The notes beneath the pieces are model-generated. The model saw only the letters and a list, made by a program, of their open reading frames with translations. It ran no database searches and was not told the DNA's origin. The translations under genes were made by a program, and so were the position numbers. Positions 32,666-64,000 of a stretch of DNA of 64,000 nt are shown here, one piece after another. Source of the DNA: Adhaeribacter aquaticus DSM 16391 (lineage in GTDB: Bacteria; Bacteroidota; Bacteroidia; Cytophagales; Hymenobacteraceae); the NCBI RefSeq assembly GCF_000473365.1, contig NZ_KI421517.1, positions 3,614,634 to 3,678,633 on the forward strand, in the 5' to 3' direction. Numbering within the stretch: position 1 is the stretch's first letter; every line of letters starts with the position of its first letter.

Positions 32666-32672
32666 AGCTACT

Positions 32673-42427: not shown

Positions 42428-43303
42428 ATGAAAATAGGATTTATAGGTTTAGGAATAATGGGTAGCCGAATGGCTGCCAATTTACAAAAAGCAGGTCATG
42501 AATTAGTAATTTATAACCGAACAGCAGCTAAAGCCGATTTATTGGTTTCGGGGGGAGCAACTTGGGCCGATTCTCCGGAAAGAGTAGGGCAGGCATGCCG
42601 CCTGGTTATTACTATGTTATCTACCCCGGAAGCAGTGGAGGAAGTGGCTCTAGGGTACGATGGGTTTTTAAAAGCCTTACCTGGTAATTCTTTATGGATA
42701 GATTGCAGCACAGTTAATCCTTCTTTTACTAAAAAAATGGCTCTGCATGCAAACAAGATGGGGCACCGCTTTCTGGATGCACCTGTAGCTGGTTCCTTAA
42801 TTCCGGCGGAAAAAGGGGAGTTGTTGTTTTATGTGGGTGGTGCTGAAAATGATTTGAATCAGGTTCGGGAATTACTGGAGGTAATGGGAAAAGCTACGAT
42901 TCATGTAGGAGAGGAAAATGGAGCCGGCACCAGTATGAAGATGGTCAATAATATGCTGTTGGCGCAGGCCATGGTTGCCTTTGCCGAGGCATTTAGTTTA
43001 GGTACTTCTCTGGGTATTTCAGAAGAAATGCTGTATCAGACTTTATTAAACGGACCAACTGCAGCCCCTTTTTTAAAACTCAAACAACCTAAAATTACTA
43101 AGCGGGATTTTTCTGCCGAATTTCCATTGGCATGGATGCAAAAAGACCTGCATTTGGCCAGTCTTACCGCTTATGAACAAAAGGTGGCGGTACCCTCGCT
43201 GCAAATTACCAAAGAATTATATGCTTTAGCCCAGCAGTCGGGTTTGGGAGAAGAAGATTTTTCAGCAATTGTAAAGCTGTTAAAGCCAGATCTTATTAAG
43301 TAG
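42428..43303 (+). CDS. NAD(P)-dependent beta-hydroxyacid dehydrogenase
   Basis: This 291-residue protein belongs to the 3-hydroxyisobutyrate/tartronate-semialdehyde/GLYR1 reductase family. The Rossmann motif is GLGIMG (7-12). NRTAAK (30-35), with Arg after the second strand, suggests NADPH use. The substrate-binding motif reads DAPVAGSL (117-124) instead of the usual DAPVSGG, and the catalytic lysine is K171 in GAGTSMKMVNNML. Substrate could be a succinic, glyoxylic or tartronic semialdehyde. It lies 82 bases after the sensor kinase and is followed by a shared terminator. Confidence 0.9.
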   Translation: MKIGFIGLGIMGSRMAANLQKAGHELVIYNRTAAKADLLVSGGATWADSPERVGQACRLVITMLSTPEAVEEVALGYDGFLKALPGNSLWIDCSTVNPSFTKKMALHANKMGHRFLDAPVAGSLIPAEKGELLFYVGGAENDLNQVRELLEVMGKATIHVGEENGAGTSMKMVNNMLLAQAMVAFAEAFSLGTSLGISEEMLYQTLLNGPTAAPFLKLKQPKITKRDFSAEFPLAWMQKDLHLASLTAYEQKVAVPSLQITKELYALAQQSGLGEEDFSAIVKLLKPDLIK

Positions 43304-48807: not shown

Positions 48808-50133
48808 TTACGCTAACTGATTTATGTCAACTGTTTTAGATTTGCGGGTTAGAAAATGAATGATCAGCCAGGTAGTAAGGTAAGTAAAGCCACAAATGGT
48901 AAACAAAATATTATAACCTCCTGCTAAATTTCCGGCGGCCTTATAGCTGTCTAATAAACTGCCTACCAGGATTGGGAAAAGAATACCGCCTACAGCCCCG
49001 GCCATACCTGCAATTCCAACTACCGAACTAACCGCTTCTTTCGGAAACATATCAGAAGCACTGGTAAAAATATTGGTCGCCCACGCCTGGTGTACTGCTA
49101 CTGCTAAACTTATTAACCAAACAGCTGCCCAGATATCAGTAACAAATTGAACCAGAATAATGGATATTTCCATAAAAGCAAAAATAAGGAGAACTGTTTT
49201 TCTAGCTTTTAAGGTAGGCATACCTCTTTTTATTAACCAGGATGAAAAATAGCCGCCTAAGATGCTGCCAATAGTGGTGGCTGCATAAATTATCATTAAT
49301 TGCAAGCTTGGCTTCTTTAAATCCAGGTTAAAAGTAGAAGCAAAATAGGAAGGTAACCAAAACAGAAAAAACCAATAAATGGGATCAATTAACCCTTTTC
49401 CTGCAATCAGGGCCCAGGTTTGGGGCACGGTAAAAAGTTTGACCCATTTAATAGATGCTTTTTCAGTGGCTGGTACTTCGGCGTCTTGTCCGGAAGTAAT
49501 ATAGGCATACTCTTCAGCAGACAAGCGTTTTTGTTTGGCAGGTACGTCGTAAAAAATCAGCCAGAAAACTAACCACACAAATCCTAATGCCCCGGTTATC
49601 CAGAAAACTTCCTGCCAGCCATAGTTACTTAATATCCAGGGTACAAGTATCAAGGCCATTACTACGCCAATACTGGTTCCGGCATTAAAAATTCCCGTTG
49701 CCAGGGCTTTTTCTTTTTTAGGGAACCATTCCGAAACAGCTTTCATAGCAGCCGGGAAATTACCTGCTTCGCCTAAACCTAAACCAATCCGGGCTAAGCC
49801 AAATCCAAAGGCACTGCGGGCTACTGCATGTAACATGCCTGCTACACTCCAAAACACAATGGTGACGGCATAGCCTAGTTTGGTTCCGGTCTTGTCTATA
49901 ATTCGACCAAATAAAACCAATCCTAAGGCATAAGCGGCAGTAAAGGCCATTACTATCTGGGCAAAATCTGTTTCAGTCCAGTTAAATTCTCTTTCCAGCG
50001 TCGGCTTTAATAAACCAATAATTTGCCGGTCCAGGTAATTTATGGTAGTAGCGGTAAACAACAGAACTACAACCAGCCAGCGGTAATTCTTAATTTTAGC
50101 AGAAGTGGCTAAGATTTTAGTAGTAGAAGGCAT
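48808..50133 (-). CDS. MFS sugar-acid transporter (ACS family, DgoT/ExuT-like)
   Basis: This 441-residue inner-membrane protein has 12 helices and belongs to the anion:cation symporter family, which includes the galactonate carrier DgoT and hexuronate carrier ExuT. Typical segments are ATTINYLDRQIIGLLKPTLEREFNWTETDFA, RIGLGLGEAGNFPAAMKAVSEWFPKKEKA, ATGIFNAGTSIGVVMALILVPW and the ending LTRKSKTV. It is the last gene of the operon with the KDPGal aldolase and galactonokinase genes. It may import galactonate or, if dehydration is periplasmic, the 2-keto-3-deoxy acid. Confidence 0.9.
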   Translation of the reverse strand: MPSTTKILATSAKIKNYRWLVVVLLFTATTINYLDRQIIGLLKPTLEREFNWTETDFAQIVMAFTAAYALGLVLFGRIIDKTGTKLGYAVTIVFWSVAGMLHAVARSAFGFGLARIGLGLGEAGNFPAAMKAVSEWFPKKEKALATGIFNAGTSIGVVMALILVPWILSNYGWQEVFWITGALGFVWLVFWLIFYDVPAKQKRLSAEEYAYITSGQDAEVPATEKASIKWVKLFTVPQTWALIAGKGLIDPIYWFFLFWLPSYFASTFNLDLKKPSLQLMIIYAATTIGSILGGYFSSWLIKRGMPTLKARKTVLLIFAFMEISIILVQFVTDIWAAVWLISLAVAVHQAWATNIFTSASDMFPKEAVSSVVGIAGMAGAVGGILFPILVGSLLDSYKAAGNLAGGYNILFTICGFTYLTTWLIIHFLTRKSKTVDINQLA

Positions 50134-50179: not shown

Positions 50180-50836
50180 CTAAGTCTGGTGAGGCTTAGC
50201 GGTCAGGTAGGCATTTACATAAGCTTTAAAATGAGCTTGTAACTCCATCCAGTCGTTTTCTTTTATTAATTTTTTATCAAATAACTGACTACCAATGCCA
50301 AAACCATCCGATCCGGCTAGTAAAAATTCTTTTAGGTTGCCTAAGCTTATGCCCCCGGTAGGCATTACTTTTAACCTATTCAAGGGTGCTTTCAAATCTT
50401 TAATATATTCCGGACCCAAAGACGTCGCCGGATAAATCTTTACCATAGAAGCTCCTAAGGTCCAGGCCTTATATATTTCGGTAGGGGTATAAGCACCCGG
50501 AAAAATTGGAATACCTTTTTTTACCGAAGCTTTGATTACTTTTTTATTAATGATGGGAGTAACAATAAACTGCGCACCGGCAGCTAGTGCTATTTCTAAG
50601 TCCTCTTCACTGCATACTGTACCTGCGCCAATATTTAAGTTCTGGCCATAGTTTTCAAAAGCAAAATGAATGATATCTGCTGCCTGGGGAGTATTCATGG
50701 TAATTTCCAGGGTGGTTAAGCCGGCCTCTTTGTAAAGTGGAATTATGTGCTGAATTTCCTCTAATGTAAGATTTCGGATTATTCCAACCAAAGGCATTTG
50801 GTTGAATTTATCCCAAGAAAATGGAGATGGATTCAT
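50180..50836 (-). CDS. 2-dehydro-3-deoxy-6-phosphogluconate/galactonate aldolase
   Basis: This 218-residue class I aldolase of the KDPG family cleaves a 2-keto-3-deoxy-6-phospho sugar acid into pyruvate and glyceraldehyde 3-phosphate. The general base E44 is in TTLEITMNTP, and the Schiff-base lysine is K133 in MVKIYPAT. GAGTVCSEEDLEIALAAGAQFIVTP and FPGAYTPTEI are family segments. The kinase gene 6 bases upstream makes the substrate 2-dehydro-3-deoxy-6-phosphogalactonate most likely (DgoA role). Sequence alone cannot separate it from KDPG or KHG aldolase. Confidence 0.92.
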   Translation of the reverse strand: MNPSPFSWDKFNQMPLVGIIRNLTLEEIQHIIPLYKEAGLTTLEITMNTPQAADIIHFAFENYGQNLNIGAGTVCSEEDLEIALAAGAQFIVTPIINKKVIKASVKKGIPIFPGAYTPTEIYKAWTLGASMVKIYPATSLGPEYIKDLKAPLNRLKVMPTGGISLGNLKEFLLAGSDGFGIGSQLFDKKLIKENDWMELQAHFKAYVNAYLTAKPHQT

Positions 50837-50842
50837 TGCTTC

Positions 50843-51847
50843 TTAATTTATTTTAATAGCTGGACTATGTTGCTGAAAAATATCTATTTGTCCGGCAATA
50901 GTAGCTTTTTCAATTATATCCGGAGGAACAGTTTGGGTGCGGGCTCTTAACCCTAACTCTTCCATGGCGAGCTTATACAATTCAAATAAATTATTGCCGC
51001 TACATAAAAATAACTGGCCTTCCTTATCCTGCAGAGTTTTTAATTCGGTTCCTATCAATAATCCGCTTAAGTAATAATAATTTTGTGGTTTGTCCAGGGT
51101 ATCAAATAAGTGATTGGTTCGTACTTTGAACAGGCTATTCAATAAATTAAAGTTTTCTGATTCCTGAATGCCAGCTTTAAATGCCTCTATATCCACTTGG
51201 TTTAAAGCGTCACTTTTCGGCGTTATGGAATCTTTTAAGATACTTTGGTTAGCCAAAATACTAAAAACCTCACCCGTCATGAAGGTTTGAAAAGCAACTA
51301 ATCGCTTTTTCTGTACCTGAATATGCTTGGAATGGGTTCCCGGAAAAATATAAATAGCCGTAGCTGTGTTAACTCCCGATAAACCTAATAAATGAATCAA
51401 ACCAACTAATTGAGTTTCTTCCCCGCGCATGACATCCTGGTCGCTTTTTACTCCTGAAATCAGAATAATTTCGTGCGGGAAATCAGCCTGGGGCTCAAAA
51501 TAGGCCACACTTGCCTGGCTACCATCCATGGCAAAAGGAATGGTGGCGTAAGGTAATTCCTTCATACCCAGCGAAGAAGAGGCCATACCCGATATCACCA
51601 CTGGAATATGATCTAAAGAAAAATTTACGCCGGCACTTAAGGCTTTAATATGCGTGTTTAACTGTTGCCGGAAATAATCTTCCCGGTTTAACCTATCCTT
51701 ATTAGCTATTTCTTCCCAGCAGTTATAGGTATGGGCAATACCATCATCAGAAACCACTTCTGCCTGAATCTGAATGGTTTTGACATCCACTAATCTTAAC
51801 CGGAATGAGGAAGTTCCCCAATCACAGCATAAAATAAAATCTTTCAT
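50843..51847 (-). CDS. dgoK: 2-dehydro-3-deoxygalactonokinase (DgoK-like)
   Basis: This 334-residue kinase belongs to the DgoK family and should phosphorylate 2-keto-3-deoxygalactonate at C6. The N-terminus FILCCDWGTSSFRLRLVD is the phosphate-binding turn of the actin-like ATPase fold. GMASSSLGMKELPYATIPF, IILISGVKSDQDVMRGEETQLVGLIHL and IYIFPGTHSKHIQV are family motifs. It lies 12 bases after the Asp-box hydrolase gene and 6 bases before the aldolase gene, so the three are one operon. Confidence 0.92.
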   Translation of the reverse strand: MKDFILCCDWGTSSFRLRLVDVKTIQIQAEVVSDDGIAHTYNCWEEIANKDRLNREDYFRQQLNTHIKALSAGVNFSLDHIPVVISGMASSSLGMKELPYATIPFAMDGSQASVAYFEPQADFPHEIILISGVKSDQDVMRGEETQLVGLIHLLGLSGVNTATAIYIFPGTHSKHIQVQKKRLVAFQTFMTGEVFSILANQSILKDSITPKSDALNQVDIEAFKAGIQESENFNLLNSLFKVRTNHLFDTLDKPQNYYYLSGLLIGTELKTLQDKEGQLFLCSGNNLFELYKLAMEELGLRARTQTVPPDIIEKATIAGQIDIFQQHSPAIKIN

Positions 51848-51859
51848 CCAGCTCTGTTT

Positions 51860-53170
51860 TTATTTTCCGACAGAATTAATTCGGGTTTTGAAAACTTTTT
51901 TGGTACTTCCAGCTAGAACGTCCTCTTCTTTAAAACGGCAGTATAGAATATCCTTTGCTCCGGTACGGTCCCGGTCAAAAACTACATGAATAGTCCCGTC
52001 GCTGGATTGATCTAAATCTGGATAAGAAACATTCTCCCGGGCATCCAGCAATAATTTGCCCGGCCAGGTTTTGCCACCGTCTTTCGATAAAAAAGCCGTC
52101 ATATTATTGCGGGTAGTACTGCTATTAGCTATTAATACCATATTGCCGGACTTTAGTTTTCCTATGTAAAACCTGCTGGATGTGGTGGGGCCGGCCGCAG
52201 TAAAGGGCGCTACATTGCTCCATGTTTTTCCGTTATCGGTACTTCTGGTGGCATATATACCTTTCGTTGTCCTGACTAAGCCTAAAAACGCTGTTTCACC
52301 AGTTTGAACCAGTTGCGGTTCATCATGAATTCTGATAGCCTCCGGAACAACTATGGTAGAATAAGGTAATAAAGTATCAATGTCCAGTCCTTGTTTCTTG
52401 TAATCGTGCGCCAAAATTATGGCACCATCTTTAGGTAAGGGTTCGCCTTTGGCTACATCCTCTGGTAAAGCCTTGTCTATATAAACAGCAAAAAAGGTTT
52501 TGTCCTGCTTTGGAATATAAGTTGGTTTGTTGCTGATAACACCATAGGTTAATAGTTTCGGATCCTTATAGGTGATTTTACTACCGTCCCAATTAAGTTT
52601 TAACGAATTCACTCCTCCTTTAGAATCCCAGATTTTGTTGTTGCCGGCACTTCCATAAAACAACCAGATTTGACCGCTTTTATCGCGCCAAAGTCCCGGA
52701 TCAAAGATTCTAATGGAAGGCTGACTTGGGTAAACAACAAATTGGTCGTTAAGCCAGGTTTTACCATTATCTAAACTAACGGCTATTGTTACAAAATTTC
52801 CCGGGCCCGGTGCTTCTCCTCCTGAATACCAGGCCGCATATAGTTGCTTGCCATCGGCGCTGGCAACAACTGATGGTACCTGTTCAAATTTCCGGTTTGT
52901 AATCCTGGAATCGTTTCCCGGATTAGGTAAAAAAATGGCTGTTTTACCATTAGATTGGAAGTTTATTCCTGATGTGGATGAATTGGTTTTACTGGTATTT
53001 TTAGAAGAACCTAATGGGTTATTAATTTTAGAAGAATGGTCTTTTTTGGTACTGGAATCAATAGTTCCTAATACCGGGCCTCTTCTAGTACTTTCATGGC
53101 CAGGCAAATGTTGACTGGAGACGAGCAAAGGCAAAAGGGTTAAACAAATGGAGCCAGCTAATTTTATCAT
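51860..53170 (-). CDS. Secreted BNR/Asp-box (sialidase-like) hydrolase
   Basis: From the chosen start this 436-residue protein has a Sec signal (MIKLAGSICLTLLPLLVSSQ), a Ser/Thr/Lys-rich linker (about 24-75) and a beta-propeller with three Asp boxes: SLDNGKTW (132-139), STDNGKTW (310-317) and SKDGGKTW (362-369). Its end (YPDLDQSSDGTIHVVFDRDRTGAKDILY) is typical of Bacteroidota sialidase-like exoenzymes. True sialidase catalytic residues (Arg triad, Tyr/Glu pair) were not all located, so the substrate is open. It is the first gene of the operon with dgoK. The frame also opens at 53203, but the signal peptide favours 53170. Confidence 0.82.
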   Translation of the reverse strand: MIKLAGSICLTLLPLLVSSQHLPGHESTRRGPVLGTIDSSTKKDHSSKINNPLGSSKNTSKTNSSTSGINFQSNGKTAIFLPNPGNDSRITNRKFEQVPSVVASADGKQLYAAWYSGGEAPGPGNFVTIAVSLDNGKTWLNDQFVVYPSQPSIRIFDPGLWRDKSGQIWLFYGSAGNNKIWDSKGGVNSLKLNWDGSKITYKDPKLLTYGVISNKPTYIPKQDKTFFAVYIDKALPEDVAKGEPLPKDGAIILAHDYKKQGLDIDTLLPYSTIVVPEAIRIHDEPQLVQTGETAFLGLVRTTKGIYATRSTDNGKTWSNVAPFTAAGPTTSSRFYIGKLKSGNMVLIANSSTTRNNMTAFLSKDGGKTWPGKLLLDARENVSYPDLDQSSDGTIHVVFDRDRTGAKDILYCRFKEEDVLAGSTKKVFKTRINSVGK

Positions 53171-53230
53171 ATTATATACTAGTTGGGTGGTGGACCTACT
53201 CAAATGGTTAGCATTGGCAATATAAAATGC

Positions 53231-53241
53231 TTAATCGTTAA
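53231..53241. promoter_or_regulatory. Candidate LacI-family operator (hydrolase/dgoK side)
   Basis: TTAATCGTTAA has symmetric TTAA arms around a CG-containing centre. It lies 61 bases upstream of the hydrolase start and resembles the perfect palindrome at 54570-54581. Confidence 0.45.
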
Positions 53242-53462
53242 AACAAATAATTTTTAAAGAATTAATATCGAAATATTTTGGATTACTTTTTTAAATAATA
53301 TAGACCCAAAGTAAAAATTTATTTTAAAGTTCGCCGCAATGCGTATTTTTCTATTTAATAAATTGAAATTTAGGGTAATAAGCGTTTTTGAAAATTTTTA
53401 CTGAAATTTGGAGAAGAAAAAGGTGGTAAAGGCGTTGGAAAAATAAAAAATTATTTTGATGT

Positions 53463-53474
53463 TTAAACGATTAA
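53463..53474. promoter_or_regulatory. Candidate LacI-family operator (lacI side)
   Basis: TTAAACGATTAA differs from the palindrome TTAATCGATTAA at one base and is flanked by GTTTAA/TTAAAC arms. It lies 39 bases before the lacI start, consistent with autoregulation. Confidence 0.45.
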
Positions 53475-53513: not shown

Positions 53514-54548
53514 ATGAAAGATAAAAAAATTTCTTTAAAAGATATAGCGCAACAAGCCGGAGTTTCTACGGCATTGGTTTCTTACGTCCTAAATGGCAAA
53601 GAGAAAGAAAGTAGAGTAGGAAAAGAAATTGCAGCTAAAATTAAAGAAATTGCTAAAGAACTGAATTATCAGCCAAATCATTTAGCCAAAAGTTTACGCA
53701 GTGGTAAAACTCATACCATTGGGCTTATTATAGCAGATATTTCTAACCCGTTTTTTGCCAATATAGCCCGAATTGTAGAAGACGAAGCAAAAAAACATAA
53801 TTATACCGTAATTATAGGTAGCTCTGATGAAAAGGCCGCTAATTCCTGGGATTTAATTAATGTTATGATCAACCGCCAAGTAGATGGGTTTATTATAGTA
53901 TCGGCCGAGAATTCGGAAGAGCAGGTTCAGTATTTAAAGGAAAGAAATTTGCCGTTTGTTTTGCTGGATAGGCATTTCCCGGAGCTTCATACCGATTATG
54001 TTTCTATAAATAATAATAAAGCAGCCTACGATGCGGGCACTCATTTAATCAAAAATGGGTACAAAAGTATAGGATTATTAGCTTATAAATCTAATCTTTT
54101 TCACATGCAGGAGCGGATTAGAGGATATCAGCAAGCCTTAAAAGAAAACGACATTAAGCCTCAAAAGAGCTGGTTGAAAGAAGTAAATTTTATAAATATT
54201 GAGAAGGAGGTAAGAGCTTCTATTGATCAAATGATTGCTGGTAAAAACCCGGTAGATGCCATGATATTTGCTACCTATAGTTTGGCCGTAAATGGATTGA
54301 AATATCTGAATGAATTAAATTTAAAAGTGCCAACTGATATCGGAATTGTAAGTTTTGGACAAGGAGATACCTTTGACCTTTATTATTGTCCGATTACTTA
54401 CCTGCACCAGCCCATGAACGATTTGGGGAGAACAGCGGTAGAGTTTTTAGTCAAGAAGCTGCAGAACCCGGAGGAAGGCATTAAACAGGTTTTAATGGAA
54501 GCCAAATTAATGACCAGAGAATCTTCTCAGGTAAAAGAAAGCAGCTAA
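53514..54548 (+). CDS. LacI-family transcriptional regulator
   Basis: This 344-residue repressor has an N-terminal helix-turn-helix (residues 5-26, ISLKDIAQQAGVSTALVSYVLNGK), a hinge helix (PNHLAKSLRSGKTHTIGLI) and a periplasmic-binding-protein-like sugar domain (about 62-335) with IADISNPFFANIARIVEDEA. It lies between the divergent dgoK operon and the dehydratase genes, with candidate operators on both sides and before its own start. It is the obvious local regulator of the sugar-acid genes; the inducer is probably an intermediate of the pathway, which is inference. Confidence 0.94.
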   Translation: MKDKKISLKDIAQQAGVSTALVSYVLNGKEKESRVGKEIAAKIKEIAKELNYQPNHLAKSLRSGKTHTIGLIIADISNPFFANIARIVEDEAKKHNYTVIIGSSDEKAANSWDLINVMINRQVDGFIIVSAENSEEQVQYLKERNLPFVLLDRHFPELHTDYVSINNNKAAYDAGTHLIKNGYKSIGLLAYKSNLFHMQERIRGYQQALKENDIKPQKSWLKEVNFINIEKEVRASIDQMIAGKNPVDAMIFATYSLAVNGLKYLNELNLKVPTDIGIVSFGQGDTFDLYYCPITYLHQPMNDLGRTAVEFLVKKLQNPEEGIKQVLMEAKLMTRESSQVKESS

Positions 54549-54569: not shown

Positions 54570-54581
54570 TTAATCGATTAA
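54570..54581. promoter_or_regulatory. Candidate LacI-family operator (dehydratase side)
   Basis: TTAATCGATTAA is a perfect 12-bp palindrome with a central CG, the usual symmetry of LacI-family operators. It lies 36 bases before the first dehydratase gene and 21 bases after lacI. Confidence 0.55.
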
Positions 54582-54616: not shown

Positions 54617-55858
54617 ATGCAACGAAGAAGTTTTCTGAAATCAGCCATGTTAGGTTCGGCCGCTGTTTTAGCGGGTTTCCCTATAATGAAAGCAGAGGCG
54701 GTTTCTAAAATGAAAATTACTAAAATCCGCTATTATGCTGCTCCCGGCTATAATAAACCACTGTTTAACCAGGCCCGGGGCATAGTGGAAATAGAAACAG
54801 ATGGCGGAATTATTGGTATTGGGGAAGGCGGCTCTAAAGACTTGATAGAACAATGTGCCCAGATGATGATCGGGGAAGATCCTTTCCGGATAGAGCATAT
54901 ATGGCAAAATGTGTACCGTGGTATGTTTTATCCGCCGGGACGGGAAAAGTTACACGCCTTGGGTGCTTTGGAGATGGCCCTTTGGGACATTAAAGGTAAA
55001 GCACTGGGTGTGCCGGTTTATGATTTATTAGGTGGAGCCACCCGCGATTATGTAGAATGTTATGCTACTGGTTTCCGGGCATCAAAAGCTAAAAACGAGG
55101 AAGATCGGGCCCGGGACTGTATTGCAGCCGGTTTGCGTACTTACCGGATTGGTCCGACCGGGGGCAACGGGGAAACTAAGTTTGATTTTTACGAAAACGC
55201 TAAAAAAACCATAGAGCTTTGCAAACGAATGGATGCGGCAGTAGGAGGTGGTGGCAAATGGGCAATAGATTTACATACCCGGTTTGACACGCAGGAAGCC
55301 ATAAAAATTTGTACCGCCATCGAAGATTTAGAACCTTACTTTGTAGAAGATCCTATTCGTTCCGAAAATCCGGGAGTTTACCGTACCCTAAGACCGATGC
55401 TAAAAGTGCCATTAACCGTGGGTGAACAGTTCGGTGACCGGTGGGAGGTAAATGAATTAATTGAAAACCATTTAATTGATTATATCCGCATGACGGTGCC
55501 CAATACGGGTGGTATAACGGAGTTTAAGAAAATAGCTGCCATGTGTGAAACGCACTATGTAGGTATTATACCTCACTTTACGGGGCCATTAGCCACCGCC
55601 AGTTTAGTGCATGCTTTAGGATCGAGCAGCCCAGTGCGTTGCATGATTGAACTTGCCGGTGGTGAGCCGGAAAGGCCAGCTTATTTTAATGAAGATTTTG
55701 TAAATTTCAAAAACGGTAAACTCTACTTAAATCCGAGCCCGGGTTTAGGAGTAAAGTTTGATCCGAAGAAGGCCACATTTGTTATGGAGGTTACCTCTAA
55801 AACAAAATTCCCGCACCCAATTCTACAAAGCCCGGATGGAGCAATCCACAACTGGTAA
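54617..55858 (+). CDS. Tat-exported enolase-superfamily sugar-acid dehydratase
   Basis: This 413-residue enzyme starts with a twin-arginine signal (QRRSFLKSAMLGSAAVLAGF, cleavage near AEA). The capping domain (about 32-140) is followed by a TIM barrel with metal ligands D218 (AIDLHTR), E244 (FVEDP) and E270 (TVGEQF). The other active-site residues are H220, H320 (IIPHFTGP) and E345. The intervals D-x-H, +26 E, +26 E, +50 H and +25 E are those I recall for E. coli galactonate dehydratase, so an acid-sugar dehydration is likely. It is directly after lacI, with a candidate operator before it. Exact substrate is unknown. Confidence 0.88.
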   Translation: MQRRSFLKSAMLGSAAVLAGFPIMKAEAVSKMKITKIRYYAAPGYNKPLFNQARGIVEIETDGGIIGIGEGGSKDLIEQCAQMMIGEDPFRIEHIWQNVYRGMFYPPGREKLHALGALEMALWDIKGKALGVPVYDLLGGATRDYVECYATGFRASKAKNEEDRARDCIAAGLRTYRIGPTGGNGETKFDFYENAKKTIELCKRMDAAVGGGGKWAIDLHTRFDTQEAIKICTAIEDLEPYFVEDPIRSENPGVYRTLRPMLKVPLTVGEQFGDRWEVNELIENHLIDYIRMTVPNTGGITEFKKIAAMCETHYVGIIPHFTGPLATASLVHALGSSSPVRCMIELAGGEPERPAYFNEDFVNFKNGKLYLNPSPGLGVKFDPKKATFVMEVTSKTKFPHPILQSPDGAIHNW

Positions 55859-55861
55859 ATA

Positions 55862-55890
55862 AAAGGCTAAGGAGATAGCCCTTAGCCTTT
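55862..55890. terminator. Intrinsic terminator-like hairpin
   Basis: An 11-bp perfect stem (55862-55872 with 55880-55890) with a 7-base loop lies 3 bases after the dehydratase stop. A T-rich stretch is short, so partial readthrough into the next gene is possible. Confidence 0.65.
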
Positions 55891-56013
55891 GAAAATAGAT
55901 TCAGTTTTTGCCTGATTCTGATAGTACTTTCTTTTCATTTAGCTTACCTTTTGTGTAATTCCTGCATAAGAGGCTTTCTTTAAAATTTACCTCCACATTA
56001 ATTTAAAGATTAA

Positions 56014-57258
56014 ATGAAAGCATCAAATAAAAAACATACCGTATCCCGGCGCAATGTTATCCAATCGGTTTTGGGAGCTACTGGCATGGCCTTAATGTTG
56101 CCATCTTCTGTATATGCTTCATCTGTAAATCAGGTGCAATTCAGGGAAAAAGTAAAAATTACCCGCCTCGAAACTTTTCTGGTAAAACCCCGCTGGATTT
56201 TCCTGAAGATACATACTGACGCTGGCGTGGTTGGTTTAGGAGAACCCTTGCTGGAAGGCCGGGCACTTACGATACAAACGGCCATAAAAGAGGTAGAGCC
56301 CTATTTAATAGGTAAAGATCCCCGGCAGGTAGTCCATCACTGGCAGGCTATCTACCGCCATGCTTTTTACCGCGGTGGCCCAATTCTAACCAGTGCCTTA
56401 AGTGGTATAGACCATGCTTTATGGGATATCAAGGGCAAGTTGTTGGGCATACCTGTGCATGAACTTTTGGGAGGGCCTACCCGGGATCGGGTTCGGATTT
56501 ATGGTCGGGCCAGTACCCCAGCCGATATGAAGAACAGAATGAGTGAAGGCTATTCGGTTATAAAAACAGGTGTAGCGCATGAACTGCCCGGTAGGATAGT
56601 AGAGAACCCGAAATTTATTAAATATGCCGCCGATAATTTTGCTGCCTTAAGAGAAACAGCCGGAAAAGATATGGATATAGCCATTGACTTTCATGGCAAT
56701 ATCTCGCCCCAAACAGCCAAAGTCCTTATCAGGGAGTTAGAGCCTTTTCAGCCTATGTTTATTGAGGAACCTTGCCAGGCGCAGAATGTAGATGTGTTAG
56801 CCGATATTGCCCGGGGAACGCATTTACCCATTGCTGCCGGGGAACGCATATTTACGAAATGGGGCTTTCGCGAATTGTTAGAGAAAAGAGCCGTTAGTAT
56901 AGTACAACCTGATTTATGCCATGCGGGCGGTATTACCGAAGGCCGGTTAATTGCCGGTATGGCAGAGGCTTATTATGTGCCAGTAGCCCCGCACAACCCA
57001 ATGGGGCCTATTTCATTAGCCGTTGGACTGCATTTAGCTGCCAGTATTCCTAATTTTCTGGTGCAGGAACAAGTATCGTTAGGGGAGGGCTACCTAAAGA
57101 AACCCTTTAAACTAGAAAAGGATGGAACGGTACTGGTGCCAACGGGTCCTGGTTTAGGGATTGTGCTGGATGATGATAAAATGAAAGATAAAATTGGGCA
57201 CGACTGGAAAAACCCGGAAAGTTATGATCCTCGTGATGGCTCCGTAGTGGATTGGTAG
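56014..57258 (+). CDS. Tat-exported D-galactonate dehydratase-like enzyme (DgoD homologue)
   Basis: This 414-residue enolase-superfamily enzyme matches E. coli DgoD closely throughout the barrel (for example FYRGGPILTSALSGIDHALWDIKGK, FHGNISPQTAKVLIRELEPFQPMFIEEP, VQPDLCHAGGITEG, GMAEAYYVPVAPHNPMGPI). Metal ligands are D225, E251 and E277; catalytic histidines H227 and H327; and E352. All six lie exactly 42 positions beyond the numbers I recall for DgoD. The extra N-terminal segment includes a twin-arginine signal (SRRNVIQSVLGATGM). It should convert D-galactonate to 2-keto-3-deoxygalactonate, apparently outside the cytoplasm, which is unusual. Confidence 0.9.
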   Translation: MKASNKKHTVSRRNVIQSVLGATGMALMLPSSVYASSVNQVQFREKVKITRLETFLVKPRWIFLKIHTDAGVVGLGEPLLEGRALTIQTAIKEVEPYLIGKDPRQVVHHWQAIYRHAFYRGGPILTSALSGIDHALWDIKGKLLGIPVHELLGGPTRDRVRIYGRASTPADMKNRMSEGYSVIKTGVAHELPGRIVENPKFIKYAADNFAALRETAGKDMDIAIDFHGNISPQTAKVLIRELEPFQPMFIEEPCQAQNVDVLADIARGTHLPIAAGERIFTKWGFRELLEKRAVSIVQPDLCHAGGITEGRLIAGMAEAYYVPVAPHNPMGPISLAVGLHLAASIPNFLVQEQVSLGEGYLKKPFKLEKDGTVLVPTGPGLGIVLDDDKMKDKIGHDWKNPESYDPRDGSVVDW

Positions 57259-57467: not shown

Positions 57468-58478
57468 ATGGATTTTCTGGAAAACAATACCGAAGAATTA
57501 ATAAGCAACCTCAAATTTATCGAGTGGGTGAAAAACCCTACGCTGGATTTAGAGGCTTACTGGAGCAAATGGTTAGCTGAAAATCCGCATCGGACAAAAG
57601 AGTTTGAATCGGCTAAAACTTTCGTTACCCTGTTAACCTTTAAAGTGCAAAAACCATCTTTTGCAACTTATCAGGAGGTGAAAACTCAGTTAAAAGAAAG
57701 CATTGAAACCAGAATATCAGAGCAATATAGACCAGCAAAAGCCTTTAATAAAATAGCGTGGCTTCAAGTCGCAGCAGTACTCATTTTAGCATTAGGGATT
57801 GGAGGGTTTTTTATTACCCGCCAGGTTAGTAGTTCAGAAGTAGTATACAAAACCGGGTATGGCGAAATAAAAAATATTGTACTTCCGGATGGATCAAATA
57901 TTGTATTAAACGCTAATTCGGAAATCAGATATGATGCTGATATGGCCAATAAACCAAAACGGGAAGTTTGGTTAGGGGGCGAGGCTTACTTCTCCGTTAC
58001 GCATACCAAAAATAACCAAAAGTTTATTGTTACTACCCCTGATAAGTACTGTGTAGAAGTGTTAGGAACTGAATTTAATATATCTAACCGCAAAACAGGT
58101 AACCGGGTGGTTCTAAATTCAGGAAGTATAAAACTCCATCTACAGGGTAAAAAAGAATCCATTACCATGAAGCCGGGAGATTTGGTAGAATTTGATCAGG
58201 ACCCAGTGAAGTATGTTAAAAAGAAATCTGCCCCGGAATTATATTCTTCCTGGAAAAGCCATCGGCTAGTATTTAATGATCAGCGATTGGATGAGATTCT
58301 TTTGCAGATTGAAAACACGTATGGCGTACAGGTAGTTGTGGGAGATACATCTATCTTAAAAGAGACGTTTTCTGGCTCCATACCTAATACTAATCTGGAT
58401 GTTGTATTATCCGGACTGACGCAATCTTTTGATTTGAAAATGCAGCGACAGGGGGATAAAGTGGTGATAACAAAATAA
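57468..58478 (+). CDS. FecR-family anti-sigma/transmembrane regulator
   Basis: This 336-residue protein has a cytoplasmic N-terminal domain (LKFIEWVKNPTLDLEAYWSKWL), one membrane helix (about 97-117) and a periplasmic FecR domain (GEIKNIVLPDGSNIVLNANSEIRYD, VWLGGEAYFSVTH). The C-terminal part (VFNDQRLDEILLQIENTYGVQVVV) resembles the STN domain that contacts the receptor. It sits just before a SusC-type transducer with STN domain, the normal order, but no ECF sigma gene lies upstream. Confidence 0.93.
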   Translation: MDFLENNTEELISNLKFIEWVKNPTLDLEAYWSKWLAENPHRTKEFESAKTFVTLLTFKVQKPSFATYQEVKTQLKESIETRISEQYRPAKAFNKIAWLQVAAVLILALGIGGFFITRQVSSSEVVYKTGYGEIKNIVLPDGSNIVLNANSEIRYDADMANKPKREVWLGGEAYFSVTHTKNNQKFIVTTPDKYCVEVLGTEFNISNRKTGNRVVLNSGSIKLHLQGKKESITMKPGDLVEFDQDPVKYVKKKSAPELYSSWKSHRLVFNDQRLDEILLQIENTYGVQVVVGDTSILKETFSGSIPNTNLDVVLSGLTQSFDLKMQRQGDKVVITK

Positions 58479-58604: not shown

Positions 58605-61600
58605 ATGAAAAAAGTAGTACGTAACGTGAGTTCCTGCTTGTTGTTATACAGTTGTATATTCCAGCCAAGCTACGGACAGGTTTTAGCCTCCAACGTGCCC
58701 CTGAAAAAAGATAGAACTTCTACCCAACAAACCAGAAGTATAAGTCTAAAAGAATCTTTATTAGAAGTAGGGAGCAAATACAATGTGCACATTTTCTTTA
58801 AAACCGAGTTTGTTCAGAATAAAATAGTGGTTCTGGAGGCAAAAGCAGGCCAGAAAACTTCTGTAGAAAATGAACTGAAATCTTTACTGGTACCGCATAA
58901 CCTGGTGTACAAAAAGGTTAGCGAAAACTTTTATGTTATTTCGCCAAAAGAAGAAGCATCATTACTCTTACCCGATGCGGCGCTGGTAAACGAAAGATAT
59001 GAAAGCCTGGTAAACGAACAACAGCAGGAATTGGATGCTGACAATTTAGCTATTCAGATAACAGGTAAAATCACCGATGAACGCGGCGAGGGAATCCCGG
59101 GTGTAACCGTTGTTTTAAAAGGAACTTCTAATGGTACCACGTCTAACCCAAACGGAACTTATAGCTTAAATGTACCAACCGGTTCCGAAAATGGTGTGTT
59201 AGTTTTCTCTTATATTGGATATACGGCTCAGGAAGTTAGTATCAATAATCGTTCTGTTATCAATGTGCAATTGGCGCCGGATACCAAAGCTTTGGAAGAG
59301 GTAGTAGTGGTTGGTTATGGTACCCAGCGCAAAACAGATGTAACGGGAGCCTTGTCTTCTATTTCTACTAAAGAATTTGCCCAACAGCCCGTAACGCGGG
59401 TAGACCAGGTGTTGCAAGGCCGGGCTGCTGGGGTGCAGGTAACCCAGGCGGGTGGGGCACCAGGTGGCGAAGCCCGGGTACGTATCAGAGGTGCTAACTC
59501 GGTACTCGGCAATAACGATCCGCTTTATGTAGTGGACGGTTTTGTAGGCGCAGATTTTACCACCGTCAACCCGAATGATATTGAATCTATTCAGGTGCTG
59601 AAAGATGCATCTTCTACGGCTATTTATGGTAGCCGGGGCGCCAATGGGGTAGTTATTATTACCACCAAGAAAGGTAAAAAAGGCGGGGTGCAGGTAAATT
59701 ACGAAGGGCAGGCCATTACCTCGGAGGTGATAAAAAGATGGGATGTATTAAATGCCCAGGAATTTGCTGAAACAGCGAATGCCCGATCTGCTGCCTTGGG
59801 TTCCAGTCCAATTTTCACACCAGCTCAAATGGAAAATATCCGGCAAAACCCCAGAGGTACCGATTGGCAGGACCTGGTTTTCAGAAGAGCTAATGGCCAA
59901 CAGCACCAGTTAGGCGTTTCCGGTGGGAACGACAAAACTACTTTTCTTATTTCGGGTAACTACCTGAACCAGGATGGTATTATTGAAAATACCAGCTACA
60001 AGCGTTATACCCTGCGTTCTAATATTGCTACTCAGGTGAATGATAAAATGTCCCTGCGTTTAAATATATCAGGTTCTAGGCTAATGAACCATAATACTGG
60101 TTTGCAAAGCGGAACTGCCAACCCGGTAGTACAAGCCTTAGCGTGGTCACCAACTACTCCGGCGCGCGATGCTAATGGAAGCATTACTGCCACTGACCCT
60201 GTTGGTTCGGTAGCCGTTAATCCGCTGGCCTTATTATACGACCGGAACACGGATGTAGAAAGGAATATAATAAATGCTATAGGTGGTATAAATTATAAGT
60301 TGCCCATTAAAGGGTTAGCTTTAGATTTACAATATGCGGTAAATTACCTGAACGGCGAAAACAAAACATTTAATGGTTTAGTTGTTACCCGGAATAATGC
60401 TAACGCTTCCCGTTTCTCATCCGAGCAAATTACCTTGCAAAGTACTAACTCATTAACCTACAACCGGACGTTTAATGAGGTACACAGTATAAACGCAGTA
60501 GCCGTATTTGAAGCACAAAAATTTACTGATAACAACTTTACTGCTACTTCAAACTCTTTACTATACCCAGAGCTAGGGTATTACAATTTATCTTTAGCCG
60601 GTTCTTATACCCCAACTTCTGGCTATAATGAATGGGGCTTGCTTTCTACTTTAGGGCGGATTAACTATGGTTTTAAAGATAAATACTTGTTAACCGTAGC
60701 CGTTAGAAGAGATGCTTCTTCTAAGTTTGCCAAAGGCAACCAGGCCAGTGTGTTCCCATCAATAGGGGTTGGTTATAACCTAGCAGAGGAAGATCTCATT
60801 AAAAACCTAAACCTATTCAGTACCCTGAAATTAAGAGGCAGCTGGGGAATGACCGGTAGCCAGGCTATCAATCCGTATGCTACCATGTCACGCTACAATA
60901 CCAATGCGCCGGTTGCTTTTAGCATTGCAGGGGTAAGCAGCGGGATTCAGTTAGGCAATCCGGGTAATCGAAACCTAAGATGGGAAACGACCAAACAAAA
61001 AGATATAGGAATAGAATTAGGTTTCTTTAACGGACGGTTAACATTTGAAGGAGATTATTTTGTTAAAAACACGGTTGATTTACTGTTAAACCGTTCTTTA
61101 CCAGCCTACGTGGGTGGTGGTACCCAAACCATAAACGTGGGTGAAATTCAGAACAAAGGCTTTGAATTTGCCATTGGCGCCACTATTCTGGAAAAAGAAG
61201 GCCTTTCCTGGACCAGTAATTTAAACATGTCTACAGTTAAAAACCAGGTAGTTAGTTTAGGTGGTATTGCACCCAGAATAGGGCAGGGTACAAACGTGGG
61301 TGCCGGTATGTCTACAACCAATGAGTTTATGTTAATTCCTGGCCAGTCGTTAGGCTCTTATTGGGGTATTAAGTACTTGGGTACCTGGAAACCAAATGAA
61401 GCTGATTTAGCAGCAAAATATGATGCCAAACCAGGTGACTCCCGTTACGAAGATTTAAATAACGATGGCCGGATCACTACTGATGACTTTCAGGTTATAG
61501 GTAAAGGTATTCCAACTACTACAGCCGGCTGGAACAACATCTTCAACTACAAAGCCTTTACTTTGAACGTGTTTTTTACCGGTGTTTTTGGTATTGATAA

Positions 61601-62012
61601 GCTGAATTACACCAGAGCAGCTGCTATGTCGGGTAGTGGTGATGCCCGCCAGTATATTTTATCTGAAATTAAAAACCGGTACATACCTGGAACAAATGAA
61701 ACTTCTGACATTCCGGCATTTAGTGCTACCAATCGGGTATTTACCCAATCCAGCCGTTTTGTTGAAAAAGGTGATTTCATCCGCTTAAAGAATGTTAGCT
61801 TATCATACCAGGTGCCTGCAGCCTTGCTGCGGAATAAAGGTAATATCCGGGTTTTTGGTAGTGCTACTAACTTATGGACCATCACCGAATACAAAGGTAT
61901 AGACCCAGAATCGAGCAATATTGGTGCCGGAACAGATACTGCCCAAGGTATTGATTACGGTGCTTATCCAAACTCCAAAACTTACACGGTAGGTTTAAAC
62001 TTAACCTTTTAA
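58605..62012 (+). CDS. SusC/RagA-type TonB-linked outer-membrane transporter with STN domain
   Basis: This 1135-residue protein imports a glycan or sugar derivative with its SusD partner. After a signal peptide (about 1-25) come an STN domain (about 45-115, SLKESLLEVGSKYNVHIFFKTEF), a carboxypeptidase-like domain (about 150-235, ITGKITDERGEGIPGVTVVLKGT), a plug (EVVVVGYGTQRKTDVTGALSSI, then DASSTAIYGSRGANGVVIITTKKGKKG) and a long barrel ending TVGLNLTF. The STN domain links it to the FecR protein encoded upstream. It is followed after 21 bases by susD. Confidence 0.95.
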   Translation: MKKVVRNVSSCLLLYSCIFQPSYGQVLASNVPLKKDRTSTQQTRSISLKESLLEVGSKYNVHIFFKTEFVQNKIVVLEAKAGQKTSVENELKSLLVPHNLVYKKVSENFYVISPKEEASLLLPDAALVNERYESLVNEQQQELDADNLAIQITGKITDERGEGIPGVTVVLKGTSNGTTSNPNGTYSLNVPTGSENGVLVFSYIGYTAQEVSINNRSVINVQLAPDTKALEEVVVVGYGTQRKTDVTGALSSISTKEFAQQPVTRVDQVLQGRAAGVQVTQAGGAPGGEARVRIRGANSVLGNNDPLYVVDGFVGADFTTVNPNDIESIQVLKDASSTAIYGSRGANGVVIITTKKGKKGGVQVNYEGQAITSEVIKRWDVLNAQEFAETANARSAALGSSPIFTPAQMENIRQNPRGTDWQDLVFRRANGQQHQLGVSGGNDKTTFLISGNYLNQDGIIENTSYKRYTLRSNIATQVNDKMSLRLNISGSRLMNHNTGLQSGTANPVVQALAWSPTTPARDANGSITATDPVGSVAVNPLALLYDRNTDVERNIINAIGGINYKLPIKGLALDLQYAVNYLNGENKTFNGLVVTRNNANASRFSSEQITLQSTNSLTYNRTFNEVHSINAVAVFEAQKFTDNNFTATSNSLLYPELGYYNLSLAGSYTPTSGYNEWGLLSTLGRINYGFKDKYLLTVAVRRDASSKFAKGNQASVFPSIGVGYNLAEEDLIKNLNLFSTLKLRGSWGMTGSQAINPYATMSRYNTNAPVAFSIAGVSSGIQLGNPGNRNLRWETTKQKDIGIELGFFNGRLTFEGDYFVKNTVDLLLNRSLPAYVGGGTQTINVGEIQNKGFEFAIGATILEKEGLSWTSNLNMSTVKNQVVSLGGIAPRIGQGTNVGAGMSTTNEFMLIPGQSLGSYWGIKYLGTWKPNEADLAAKYDAKPGDSRYEDLNNDGRITTDDFQVIGKGIPTTTAGWNNIFNYKAFTLNVFFTGVFGIDKLNYTRAAAMSGSGDARQYILSEIKNRYIPGTNETSDIPAFSATNRVFTQSSRFVEKGDFIRLKNVSLSYQVPAALLRNKGNIRVFGSATNLWTITEYKGIDPESSNIGAGTDTAQGIDYGAYPNSKTYTVGLNLTF

Positions 62013-62033: not shown

Positions 62034-63521
62034 ATGAAAAAGATAAATATACTTTTACTCGCTGCCCTATTATTAGCTGGCACAGGTTGTAAAGATTATT
62101 TGGAAGAAGAGGCCAACGGAGCCTTATTGGGGGCTGGTGCCTTAAAATCGGTCCAAGGTTTAGAAGCTGCATTAACCGGTACTTACAAAGGTTTGCAGAA
62201 TACCTGGGGAACCGGCTTTGTGCATGCTACTGCTATTGCGGCTACTATGGGCGGAGATGATGTAACTACGCATAAAGCCAGTAACAAAGCAGATTTTCGG
62301 GAGTTTGATCAGTTTGCAGTTCCGGCAACAAACCAAAGAACCCAGGCTTTATACAGCGGTTGTTACAAAGCTATTCAGGGCGCTAATAATGTAATTGCAA
62401 ATTATAAAAATACGGTAGCCATTTCTGATGCTGATAAAGCCAGGGTAGAGGCTATTGCCGGGGAAGCTTATTTCTTAAGAGCCTTCTCTTATTTCTGGTT
62501 AGTTCGGCTTTACGGTAGTATTCCGCTTATTACGCAAGCTGAGTTTTCAGATGAAATGCTAACCATGACCAAGTCAGGACCAGCTGATGTTTATAAACTA
62601 ATTGAGGCTGATTTGCTGGAAGCTGAAAAAATGATGCCTAATGCTAAAAGAAACCCAGGCCGGCCAAATAAAGGAACAGTAAAAGCGTATATGGCAGAGG
62701 TATATTTAACTCAAGCCGGATGGCCTTTAAAGCAAACTGATAAATATGCGCTGGCGGCTGCCAAAGCAAAGGAAGTAATAGACAACCGTGCTACGTATGG
62801 ATTTAGTTTATTACCTACCTACGCTGAGGTATTTGAGAATGATCCTGGTAAAAATGGAACTGCCGAAGCTGTATTTCAATTATCAACTTTCATGGGGGTA
62901 GGCTCTACAACCAATGCCAATTATGGCTGGTCGGCTATGCCGGGTGAGGAATCAGGTTGGGATGACTTCTTTGCCGAAATAAACTTCTTTAATAATTTCC
63001 CGGCTGGGCCAAGAAAAGATGTAACGTTTAGAACTAATTTTAAAAAAGCAGATGGTTCTACCGTTTCGTGGCAACAAAGCCAGACGCAACATCCATACTA
63101 TCAGAAGTTTTATATAAAAGGAGAAGTTAAAAACTGGGCTTCTTCTGTGCCGGAAACACTGATGCGGTATGCGCATGTGTTAACCATGTACGCCGAAGCT
63201 AAGGCCAGAACACCACAAGGACCTGATCAGTTAGCTTATAATGCTTTAAATATGATAAGAGAAAGAGCTGGCTTAGCGCCAATTGCTTTTGGCTCTTTAT
63301 CGCCGCAGGAATTTGCCAATGCCGTGGTGCAGGAGCGTGCCTGGGAATTTGCAGCCGAAAGAACCCGGTGGTTTGATTTGGTTCGGTTGGAAATGGTAGA
63401 AGCTGCTAATGCCAATAAGCATCCCAATGATTTAGCTGTAATTGGGTCTATCAGCAAAGAGGATTATACCTTTCCGCTTCCATTCTCAGAAACTTCTGTT
63501 AATCCAAATTTAGGTAAATAG
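62034..63521 (+). CDS. SusD/RagB-type substrate-binding lipoprotein
   Basis: This 495-residue outer-membrane lipoprotein has a lipobox TGC (Cys19) and the SusD fold of helical TPR pairs. Typical segments are GEAYFLRAFSYFWLVRLYGSIPLITQ, GTVKAYMAEVYLTQAGWPL, YAHVLTMYAEAKAR and QERAWEFAAERTRWFDLVRLEMV. With the SusC protein it forms the lidded import complex. The substrate is not known but, from context, may be a galactonate-containing or sugar-acid compound. A terminator-like hairpin separates it from the next gene. Confidence 0.94.
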   Translation: MKKINILLLAALLLAGTGCKDYLEEEANGALLGAGALKSVQGLEAALTGTYKGLQNTWGTGFVHATAIAATMGGDDVTTHKASNKADFREFDQFAVPATNQRTQALYSGCYKAIQGANNVIANYKNTVAISDADKARVEAIAGEAYFLRAFSYFWLVRLYGSIPLITQAEFSDEMLTMTKSGPADVYKLIEADLLEAEKMMPNAKRNPGRPNKGTVKAYMAEVYLTQAGWPLKQTDKYALAAAKAKEVIDNRATYGFSLLPTYAEVFENDPGKNGTAEAVFQLSTFMGVGSTTNANYGWSAMPGEESGWDDFFAEINFFNNFPAGPRKDVTFRTNFKKADGSTVSWQQSQTQHPYYQKFYIKGEVKNWASSVPETLMRYAHVLTMYAEAKARTPQGPDQLAYNALNMIRERAGLAPIAFGSLSPQEFANAVVQERAWEFAAERTRWFDLVRLEMVEAANANKHPNDLAVIGSISKEDYTFPLPFSETSVNPNLGK

Positions 63522-63575: not shown

Positions 63576-63666
63576 ATAAAACTAATAATTATAATATCCA
63601 CCCCATCACAATAAAGGGTTAGCGCTTATCCTGCGTGAAAACCTTTGCTAAAGAAATAAAATGCTT

Positions 63667-64000
63667 ATGAATCAAAATGACTTCCCTCAGGATGTTAGTC
63701 GCCGGGATAGTATTAAAAAATTAGGATTAGGGTCGGCCGCTGGCTTATTAGGTTTATTTGGCGGCATATCAGGTGCCGAAGCCAAAGAACGGGACCAAGA
63801 TAAATTTACCTATGCTAAAGGTGTAGCGCCAATTAAAATTAAAAGTGTTAGAGCCATTGGTACAGCTCCTCAGGGGCCAAACCTGGTGGTAGTGCGGGTA
63901 GATACAACAGAACCAGGCTTATACGGCTTAGGGTGTGCAACCTTTACCCAACGGGCTGAGGTAGTGGTAACAGCAATAGACCGGTATTTAAATGATCTTT
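63667..64000 (+). CDS. Third Tat-exported enolase-superfamily enzyme (cut by window edge)
   Basis: Only the first 111 codons are in the window. The protein starts with a twin-arginine signal (SRRDSIKKLGLGSAAGLLGLF, Ala-rich cleavage region) and enters the capping domain of the mandelate racemase/ManD-RspA-like subgroup (GPNLVVVRVDTTEPGLYGLGCATFTQR). The metal ligands lie beyond the window, so the substrate class is only suggested by context. An in-frame ATG at 63661 gives two extra residues (ML). It follows the SusD hairpin. Confidence 0.8.
   Translation, partial: MNQNDFPQDVSRRDSIKKLGLGSAAGLLGLFGGISGAEAKERDQDKFTYAKGVAPIKIKSVRAIGTAPQGPNLVVVRVDTTEPGLYGLGCATFTQRAEVVVTAIDRYLNDL

Follow-up and report, generated by a model that had tools for sequence, protein, structure and literature searches.

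Conserved twin-arginine-type signals on dehydratases of an Adhaeribacter aquaticus sugar-acid gene cluster suggest a De Ley-Doudoroff-type route divided by the inner membrane

We analyzed a 64,000-nucleotide stretch of the genome of Adhaeribacter aquaticus DSM 16391 (contig NZ_KI421517.1, positions 3,614,634 to 3,678,633; here called the window), which joins dehydratase, kinase and aldolase genes that NCBIfam and Pfam searches match to the enzyme set of the De Ley-Doudoroff pathway. In known pathways of this type, the galactonate dehydratase DgoD is a cytoplasmic enzyme. Two dehydratase-like proteins of the window, E1 and E2, begin with conserved signals of the twin-arginine translocation (Tat) type, and the kinase and aldolase carry no signal. 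These genes, together with a carrier of the major facilitator superfamily (MFS) and a regulator, are arranged as follows.

54617..55858, plus strand: E1, a Tat-tagged, dehydratase-like enolase-superfamily protein related to DgoD and ManD
54617..54700, plus strand: Tat-type signal of E1 (QRRSFLKS ... AEA), 28 residues, delimited by eye with the A-x-A rule
56014..57258, plus strand: E2, a DgoD-type galactonate dehydratase with an N-terminal extension (NCBIfam, aligned active site)
56014..56118, plus strand: Tat-type signal of E2 (SRRNVIQS ... VYA), 35 residues, delimited by the same rule
53514..54548, plus strand: LacI-family regulator (family searches)
51860..53203, minus strand: BNR propeller protein, the first gene in the kinase-aldolase-MFS row
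50843..51847, minus strand: DgoK, 2-keto-3-deoxygalactonokinase, without a signal (Pfam DGOK, 204.9 bits)
50180..50836, minus strand: aldolase of the KDPG/KDPGal type, without a signal (family searches)
48808..50133, minus strand: DgoT-like MFS carrier (best match TIGR00893, with a score under the cut-off of that model)

The BNR propeller, DgoK, aldolase and MFS genes follow one another in this order on the minus strand, separated by gaps of 12, 6 and 46 bases, and the row is divergent from LacI-E1-E2. The kinase gene is the sole DgoK match in the whole genome. Among 32 pairs in relatives with kinase and aldolase genes on the same strand, 20 show a 4-base overlap of the two genes.

E2 scored 437.9 bits against the NCBIfam galactonate dehydratase model NF010624, above the cut-off of 311, with the match beginning at residue 48. 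Residues D183, H185, E209, E235, D258, H285 and E310 of Escherichia coli DgoD, which we take to be its catalytic and metal-ligand residues, align with D225, H227, E251, E277, D300, H327 and E352 of E2, so that the constant active-site offset of 42 claimed in the first-pass annotation of this DNA was found at all seven positions. The seven residues are invariant in an alignment of 78 E2 rows, which was made from 80 open reading frames (ORFs) after one short and one signal-less ORF had been excluded.

The added N-terminal segment of E2 reads MKASNKKHTVSRRNVIQSVLGATGMALMLPSSVYA, with putative cleavage before SS, and E1 begins with MQRRSFLKSAMLGSAAVLAGFPIMKAEA, with putative cleavage before VS (both placed by the A-x-A rule). 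At least 80 E2 loci were found across genomes, and the best 80 were analyzed; Dyadobacter fermentans (L038) is one of the relatives with the cluster. The twin arginine is present in all 78 readable E2 N-termini, the remaining two loci being unreadable because one ends at a contig edge (L068) and the other is frame-shifted after a visible RR (L049). All six arginine codons occur at each R of the pair in this set, and R3 and R4 of E1 are invariant in 27 aligned rows. Over the RR and the next 12 codons of E2, pairwise differences at codon positions 1, 2 and 3 amounted to 0.340, 0.221 and 0.697, compared with 0.136, 0.035 and 0.574 over 90 codons of the mature part. Since third codon positions vary most, the signal region is a coding segment, under looser constraint than the mature part. 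We rejected an artifact of start-site choice, given that the protein sequence of the N-terminal segment is conserved although its codons vary.

We next screened the ORFs of the E2 loci with a signal filter that requires an RR together with an uncharged hydrophobic 12-mer. It passed 72/80 E2, 51/51 E1 and 45/49 E3 proteins (E3 is a third Tat-tagged member of the superfamily, described below), compared with 2/37 LacI regulators, 40/599 other ORFs and none of the DgoK (0/36), aldolase (0/35), MFS (0/28) or pyrroloquinoline quinone (PQQ) dehydrogenase (0/29) proteins. Of the eight E2 proteins that failed, one is a signal-less DgoD (L027), a few have weaker hydrophobic stretches and the others come from truncated or mis-started ORFs; truncation or a wrong start also accounts for the four E3 failures. 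A stricter first version of the filter had passed 14/49 E3 and 69/80 E2, and the looser version was then used for all groups alike. The counts for E1, E2 and E3 against kinase, aldolase, LacI and other ORFs rule out a chance twin arginine. Thus, the Tat-type signals on the dehydratases are conserved, as had been claimed for SRRNVIQS in the E2 extension and for QRRSFLKS at the start of the upstream second dehydratase. The first-pass annotation was also right that kinase and aldolase lack a signal, but it had placed them downstream; they lie upstream of the dehydratase genes, on the opposite strand.

One could argue that these N-termini are merely Tat-like and that the enzymes are cytoplasmic or translated from starts further in. 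The Pfam model TAT_signal fits such a reading, since E1 reached 15.7 bits with a cut-off of 22.7 and E2 gave no match. However, the retention of RR in every readable ortholog with all six codons in use, the kept hydrophobic stretch and the excess of third-position changes, as well as the fact that DgoDs without a signal from the window's bacterial family begin at the enzyme core (see below), make this reading very improbable. The genome contains tatC, which occurs in 391/395 genomes of the phylum and is therefore too common to discriminate. On the strength of their signals, the dehydratases are predicted to be exported.

Seven of the loci with Tat-bearing E2 relatives (L073, L074 and L077-L081; 66-68% identity) lie on contigs labelled Acidobacteriota, Planctomycetota and Omnitrophota. 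These labels may reflect inter-phylum transfer or mis-binned contigs.

For comparison, we searched 150 sampled genomes of the window's bacterial family and found a DgoD-like protein (E up to 1e-80) in 27. Four of these, in the window's genus, are of the Tat kind; the 23 others are signal-less, with 47-49% identity. The signal filter passes 0/23 of the latter, which start at or near the enzyme core. In a tree of 55 DgoD cores, one branch (Shimodaira-Hasegawa-like approximate likelihood ratio test, 100; length, 1.48) separates 32 rows with a signal from 23 rows without one; the tree was built by a quick method without bootstrap, and one row (L109) forms a long terminal branch. That row, the genome's second DgoD, had been considered as a cytoplasmic control and was dropped, as it has an RR start as well. 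Both kinds of DgoD occur within one locus in Segetibacter (L027).

The two kinds of dehydratase also keep different company. Flanks were fetched for 16 of the 23 signal-less loci, which hold DgoK and aldolase in 16 cases each, an SMP-30 lactonase in 11 and a short-chain dehydrogenase/reductase (SDR) in 8; neither a PQQ dehydrogenase nor an MFS carrier of the window type was found in any of the 16. In contrast, the 80 Tat loci hold DgoK in 35, aldolase in 35, MFS in 33, PQQ dehydrogenase in 31, SDR in 2 and SMP-30 in 0 cases, counts that are lower bounds, as 27 of the 80 loci span under 21 kb. This contrast indicates that the kind of oxidizing enzyme tracks the kind of dehydratase.

The distance between the two clades bears on the substrate of E2. 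The branch of 1.48 that separates the Tat clade from E. coli DgoD, along with the 45-50% identity to signal-less DgoDs, would suit an exported E2 that acts on another aldonate or some other substrate in a different, unnamed route. We consider this unlikely, if well worth keeping in view, given that E2 scores over the galactonate dehydratase cut-off, keeps the seven active-site residues and adjoins a galactonate-type kinase and aldolase. Galactonate is, on these grounds, the predicted substrate of E2. The rival readings weighed here overlap with each other and with the one that we prefer, so their probabilities do not add up to one.

E1 is more divergent. It scored 198.3 bits against the galactonate dehydratase model, below the cut-off of 311; the position of D258 is a threonine in 51/51 proteins and that of E310 is M, I or Y, whereas the metal ligands and both histidines are kept. 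A structure model of E1 (mean predicted local distance difference test [pLDDT] score, 75.9) matched DgoD and ManD structures best, which names no substrate. E3 has a histidine at the D258 position. With the ManD model NF043051 (cut-off, 550 bits), the second E3 of the genome scored 390.4 and the E3 of L002 scored 383.8, both below the cut-off. Two E3-type genes (G000 C1:1013109-1013423 and 3685225-3685539) have identical N-terminal sequences and equal family scores, so one is probably a recent duplicate at a distant place in the genome. A second gene of the DgoD type, likewise beginning with an RR (L116:11389-14226; G000 C1 near 3752400-3755200), scored 330.6 bits against the cut-off of 311, has a glutamate at the D183 position and adjoins a gene whose product combines FAD-binding and D-arabinono-lactone oxidase domains.

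The following features lie 3' of E2.

57468..58478, plus strand: FecR-like anti-sigma protein (by reading)
58605..62012, plus strand: SusC-like outer-membrane transporter (by reading)
62034..63521, plus strand: SusD-like lipoprotein (by reading)
63661..64000, plus strand: start of E3, the third Tat-tagged, ManD-like enolase-superfamily protein, which runs past the window as L115:161-1537

The region after the window end adds one more SusC/D pair and a second E3 gene, and related SusC genes were found at 24 of the clustered loci, the window included. Just past the window, L115:11006-19414 holds genes for a FucP-type permease, SDRs, a 2,4-didehydro-3-deoxy-rhamnonate-hydrolase-like protein and a galactarate-dehydratase-like protein, which by our reading make up a cytoplasmic oxidative route of the L-fucose type adjoining the exported one. 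Elsewhere in the window, reading of the ORFs pointed to a GntP-type permease with a glycerate-kinase-like gene (31409-33794), a GH36-type alpha-galactosidase bearing a secretion signal (35319-37547) and a 3-hydroxyisobutyrate-dehydrogenase-like gene (42428-43303).

The Tat-type start extends to the whole MR_MLE_N (enolase superfamily) complement of the genome. With 20 MR_MLE_N genes, it ranks highest of 118 phylum genomes searched (the next has 8), and an RR precedes a hydrophobic stretch in all 20, in 19 by the filter and in one (L156) by eye. No signal-less MR_MLE_N dehydratase was found in the genome, and two more genes, which match MR_MLE_C only, have no RR-type start. In the other genomes, 67 of which had a match, 0/29 of the best MR_MLE_N loci pass the filter, a count to be read with the limits that an SRKKFLQ variant (L223) is invisible to the filter and that the scan of the first 75 residues may miss the true start in long frames, L208 and L225 among them. 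The E2 kind itself, at E below 1e-200, was found in 3/395 phylum genomes. A 71-kb region (G000 C1:2049398-2120387; L175-L178) contains 13 of the 20 MR_MLE_N genes, ten of them inside 20 kb; these ten carry ~35 additional residues ahead of the RR (MKSILxQIIxANK ... AEINNPxT ... RRxFLKKTALGG), and genes for SusC/D and two aldehyde dehydrogenases are found in the vicinity. We entertain, tentatively and with confidence just short of balanced, the idea that the whole MR_MLE_N branch has moved to the periplasm as a pre-digestion stage of aldose oxidation and acid dehydration, with 2-keto-3-deoxy acids, and not sugars or sugar acids, as the common currency of import.

The MFS carrier shares 27% identity with E. 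coli DgoT (114/423), and we compared its residues in 16 full-length orthologs (12 partial ones were excluded), with DgoT as the sole DgoT-family reference. The proton and carboxylate residues Y44, D46, R47, Y79 and E133 of DgoT are kept in the 16 orthologs. In the structure of DgoT, Q164, Q264, S370 and N393 hydrogen-bond the hydroxyls of galactonate (PMC6532931). Q264 is replaced by K, S370 by T (a conservative change) and N393 by G in 16/16 orthologs, and Q164 by T in 15/16 and by A in one; W373 is F in 16/16. This pattern would suit a carrier whose organic anion is not galactonate, without specifying which one it is, and the keto-deoxy acid is the candidate that we favor.

A reading in which the dehydratases are exported, while the MFS carries the aldonic acid or the enzymes act on another acid, so that the keto-deoxy acid is not the main import, draws on the best match of the carrier, a D-galactonate transporter subfamily, and on its anion and proton residues, which equal those of DgoT. 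We regard it as rather improbable. The four hydroxyl-pocket replacements speak against a DgoT-type galactonate pocket. Moreover, all 20 MR_MLE_N genes appear Tat-tagged and none was found to be cytoplasmic, so imported galactonate would require a dehydratase of another enzyme family, such as the IlvD/Edd type, for which no search was made.

The evidence for the oxidation step that would supply galactonate comes mainly from relatives, where in 19/27 cases no more than 118 bases separate a PQQ dehydrogenase gene from the kinase gene. The PQQ dehydrogenases are, in our reading of their N-terminal hydrophobic stretches and their family, probably exported; a lipoprotein label for them was dropped, as the lipobox expression matched only 5/29. 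A secreted-looking protein, absent from the window, adjoins the PQQ dehydrogenase in relatives (13 ORFs, 12 aligned), and its structure model (pLDDT 80) matched aldose 1-epimerase/galactose mutarotase folds best (3nre; E, 4.9e-12; template modelling [TM] score, ~0.6). The genome of A. aquaticus has six PQQ-dehydrogenase-like genes, including G000 C1:3586489-3588717 (L117).

Operator-like palindromes were located by sequence matching at three places in the window.

53463..53474, no strand: palindrome TTAAACGATTAA before LacI
54570..54581, no strand: palindrome TTAATCGATTAA before E1
53231..53242, no strand: copy with one mismatch before the divergent kinase row

The first two are the only exact copies of TTAANCGNTTAA in the window, and three genus relatives share all three sites, including the one-mismatch copy before DgoK. 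The genome holds 20 exact places, not an enriched total since a reversed-pattern control gave 27; 4 of the 20 fall inside 12 kb here, two of them before the next susC. In relatives, exact intergenic sites precede susC (33), E1 (29) and LacI (15), and none was found in the 16 signal-less DgoD loci. The window has 11 one-mismatch matches, a number reached by 12/100 shuffles and hence not above chance, so that for these matches position alone, and not number, is informative. The LacI regulator probably controls the gene set through the TTAANCGNTTAA sites, a prediction from their placement.

Taken together, these data lead us to consider a De Ley-Doudoroff-type route split by the membrane the best explanation, and a rather probable one. 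Sugars would enter the periplasm via SusC/D, where a PQQ dehydrogenase would oxidize aldoses to aldonic acids, possibly helped in some relatives by the secreted mutarotase-fold protein. Tat-exported E2 would dehydrate galactonate to the 2-keto-3-deoxy acid in the periplasm, and E1 and ManD-like E3 would probably convert other aldonates to 2-keto-3-deoxy acids there. The DgoT-like MFS would import the keto-deoxy acid with protons, and DgoK and aldolase would complete the route in the cytoplasm. The first-pass proposal that dehydration occurs outside the cytoplasm and that the MFS imports the keto-deoxy acid is thus supported, as far as gene content and conserved residues can speak for it.

Several observations weigh against this route, besides the Pfam result for the signals. 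The distance of the Tat clade from E. coli DgoD means that the substrate of E2 may differ, and in E1 two of the seven active-site residues of DgoD are missing. For the oxidation step, the genome's own PQQ dehydrogenase, 71% identical to that of relatives, lies ~82 kb from E2; the loci fetched from three genus relatives showed no such gene, nor did 49/80 Tat loci (27 of the 80 being under 21 kb). A pqqC search of the genome gave no match, but control genomes gave none either, and scavenging of the cofactor is possible. A PQQ-made aldonate as the source of the dehydratase substrate is therefore a proposal that rests on relatives. Finally, operator-like sites within 350 bases in relatives precede DgoK in 2/35, MFS in 0/27 and PQQ dehydrogenase in 0/29 cases.

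If the proposed route is correct, a classical sugar-acid pathway carries out its first committed dehydration outside the cytoplasm, which would change the recognition task of the inner-membrane carrier and the coupling of the pathway to respiration. It would also give the Tat-tagged "mandelate racemase family" proteins found in Bacteroidota a place and a role, and pathway maps that ignore signal peptides would assign such enzymes to the wrong compartment. No report of a periplasmic or Tat-exported galactonate dehydratase was found among the titles and abstract openings listed from the open-licence literature, an absence that is weak evidence. The culture filtrate of an archaeon holds a D-gluconate/D-galactonate dehydratase, and the accessible part of that report gives no predicted Tat substrate (PMC8345856).

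Compared with known systems, the window shares dehydratase, kinase, aldolase and a DgoT-related carrier with the De Ley-Doudoroff genes dgoRKADT of E. coli. However, E. coli DgoD begins at the enzyme core, whereas the window dehydratase has a Tat-type signal, and the window has a different hydroxyl pocket in its carrier, a LacI-type regulator, SusC/D and two more Tat-tagged enolase-superfamily proteins. The signal-less DgoD clusters of the window's family likewise have kinase and aldolase in every fetched locus; they differ in the missing signal and in the SDR and SMP-30 genes that replace PQQ dehydrogenase and the window-type MFS. The Qui dehydratases of the Acinetobacter quinate pathway do not, to our knowledge, belong to the enolase superfamily. 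Among Bacteroidota, DauB of the Zobellia galactanivorans dauABCD system for carrageenan makes 2-keto-3-deoxy-D-galactonate for a kinase and aldolase (PMC5698469), and its structure (5olc) matches E2 at the 1e-41 level. Keto-deoxygalactonate thus feeds a kinase and aldolase there as it would here, but in Zobellia the monosaccharide is imported first and oxidized with NAD, and the accessible part of that paper mentions no Tat signal (PMC5698469). The closest precedent in logic is the Acinetobacter quinate pathway (QuiA, QuiB and QuiC), in which a dehydrogenase followed by dehydratases works in the periplasm and the product is moved inside (PMC4213383). Its substrates and products are different and we claim no membership in it, but by analogy the proposed route would follow the same logic.

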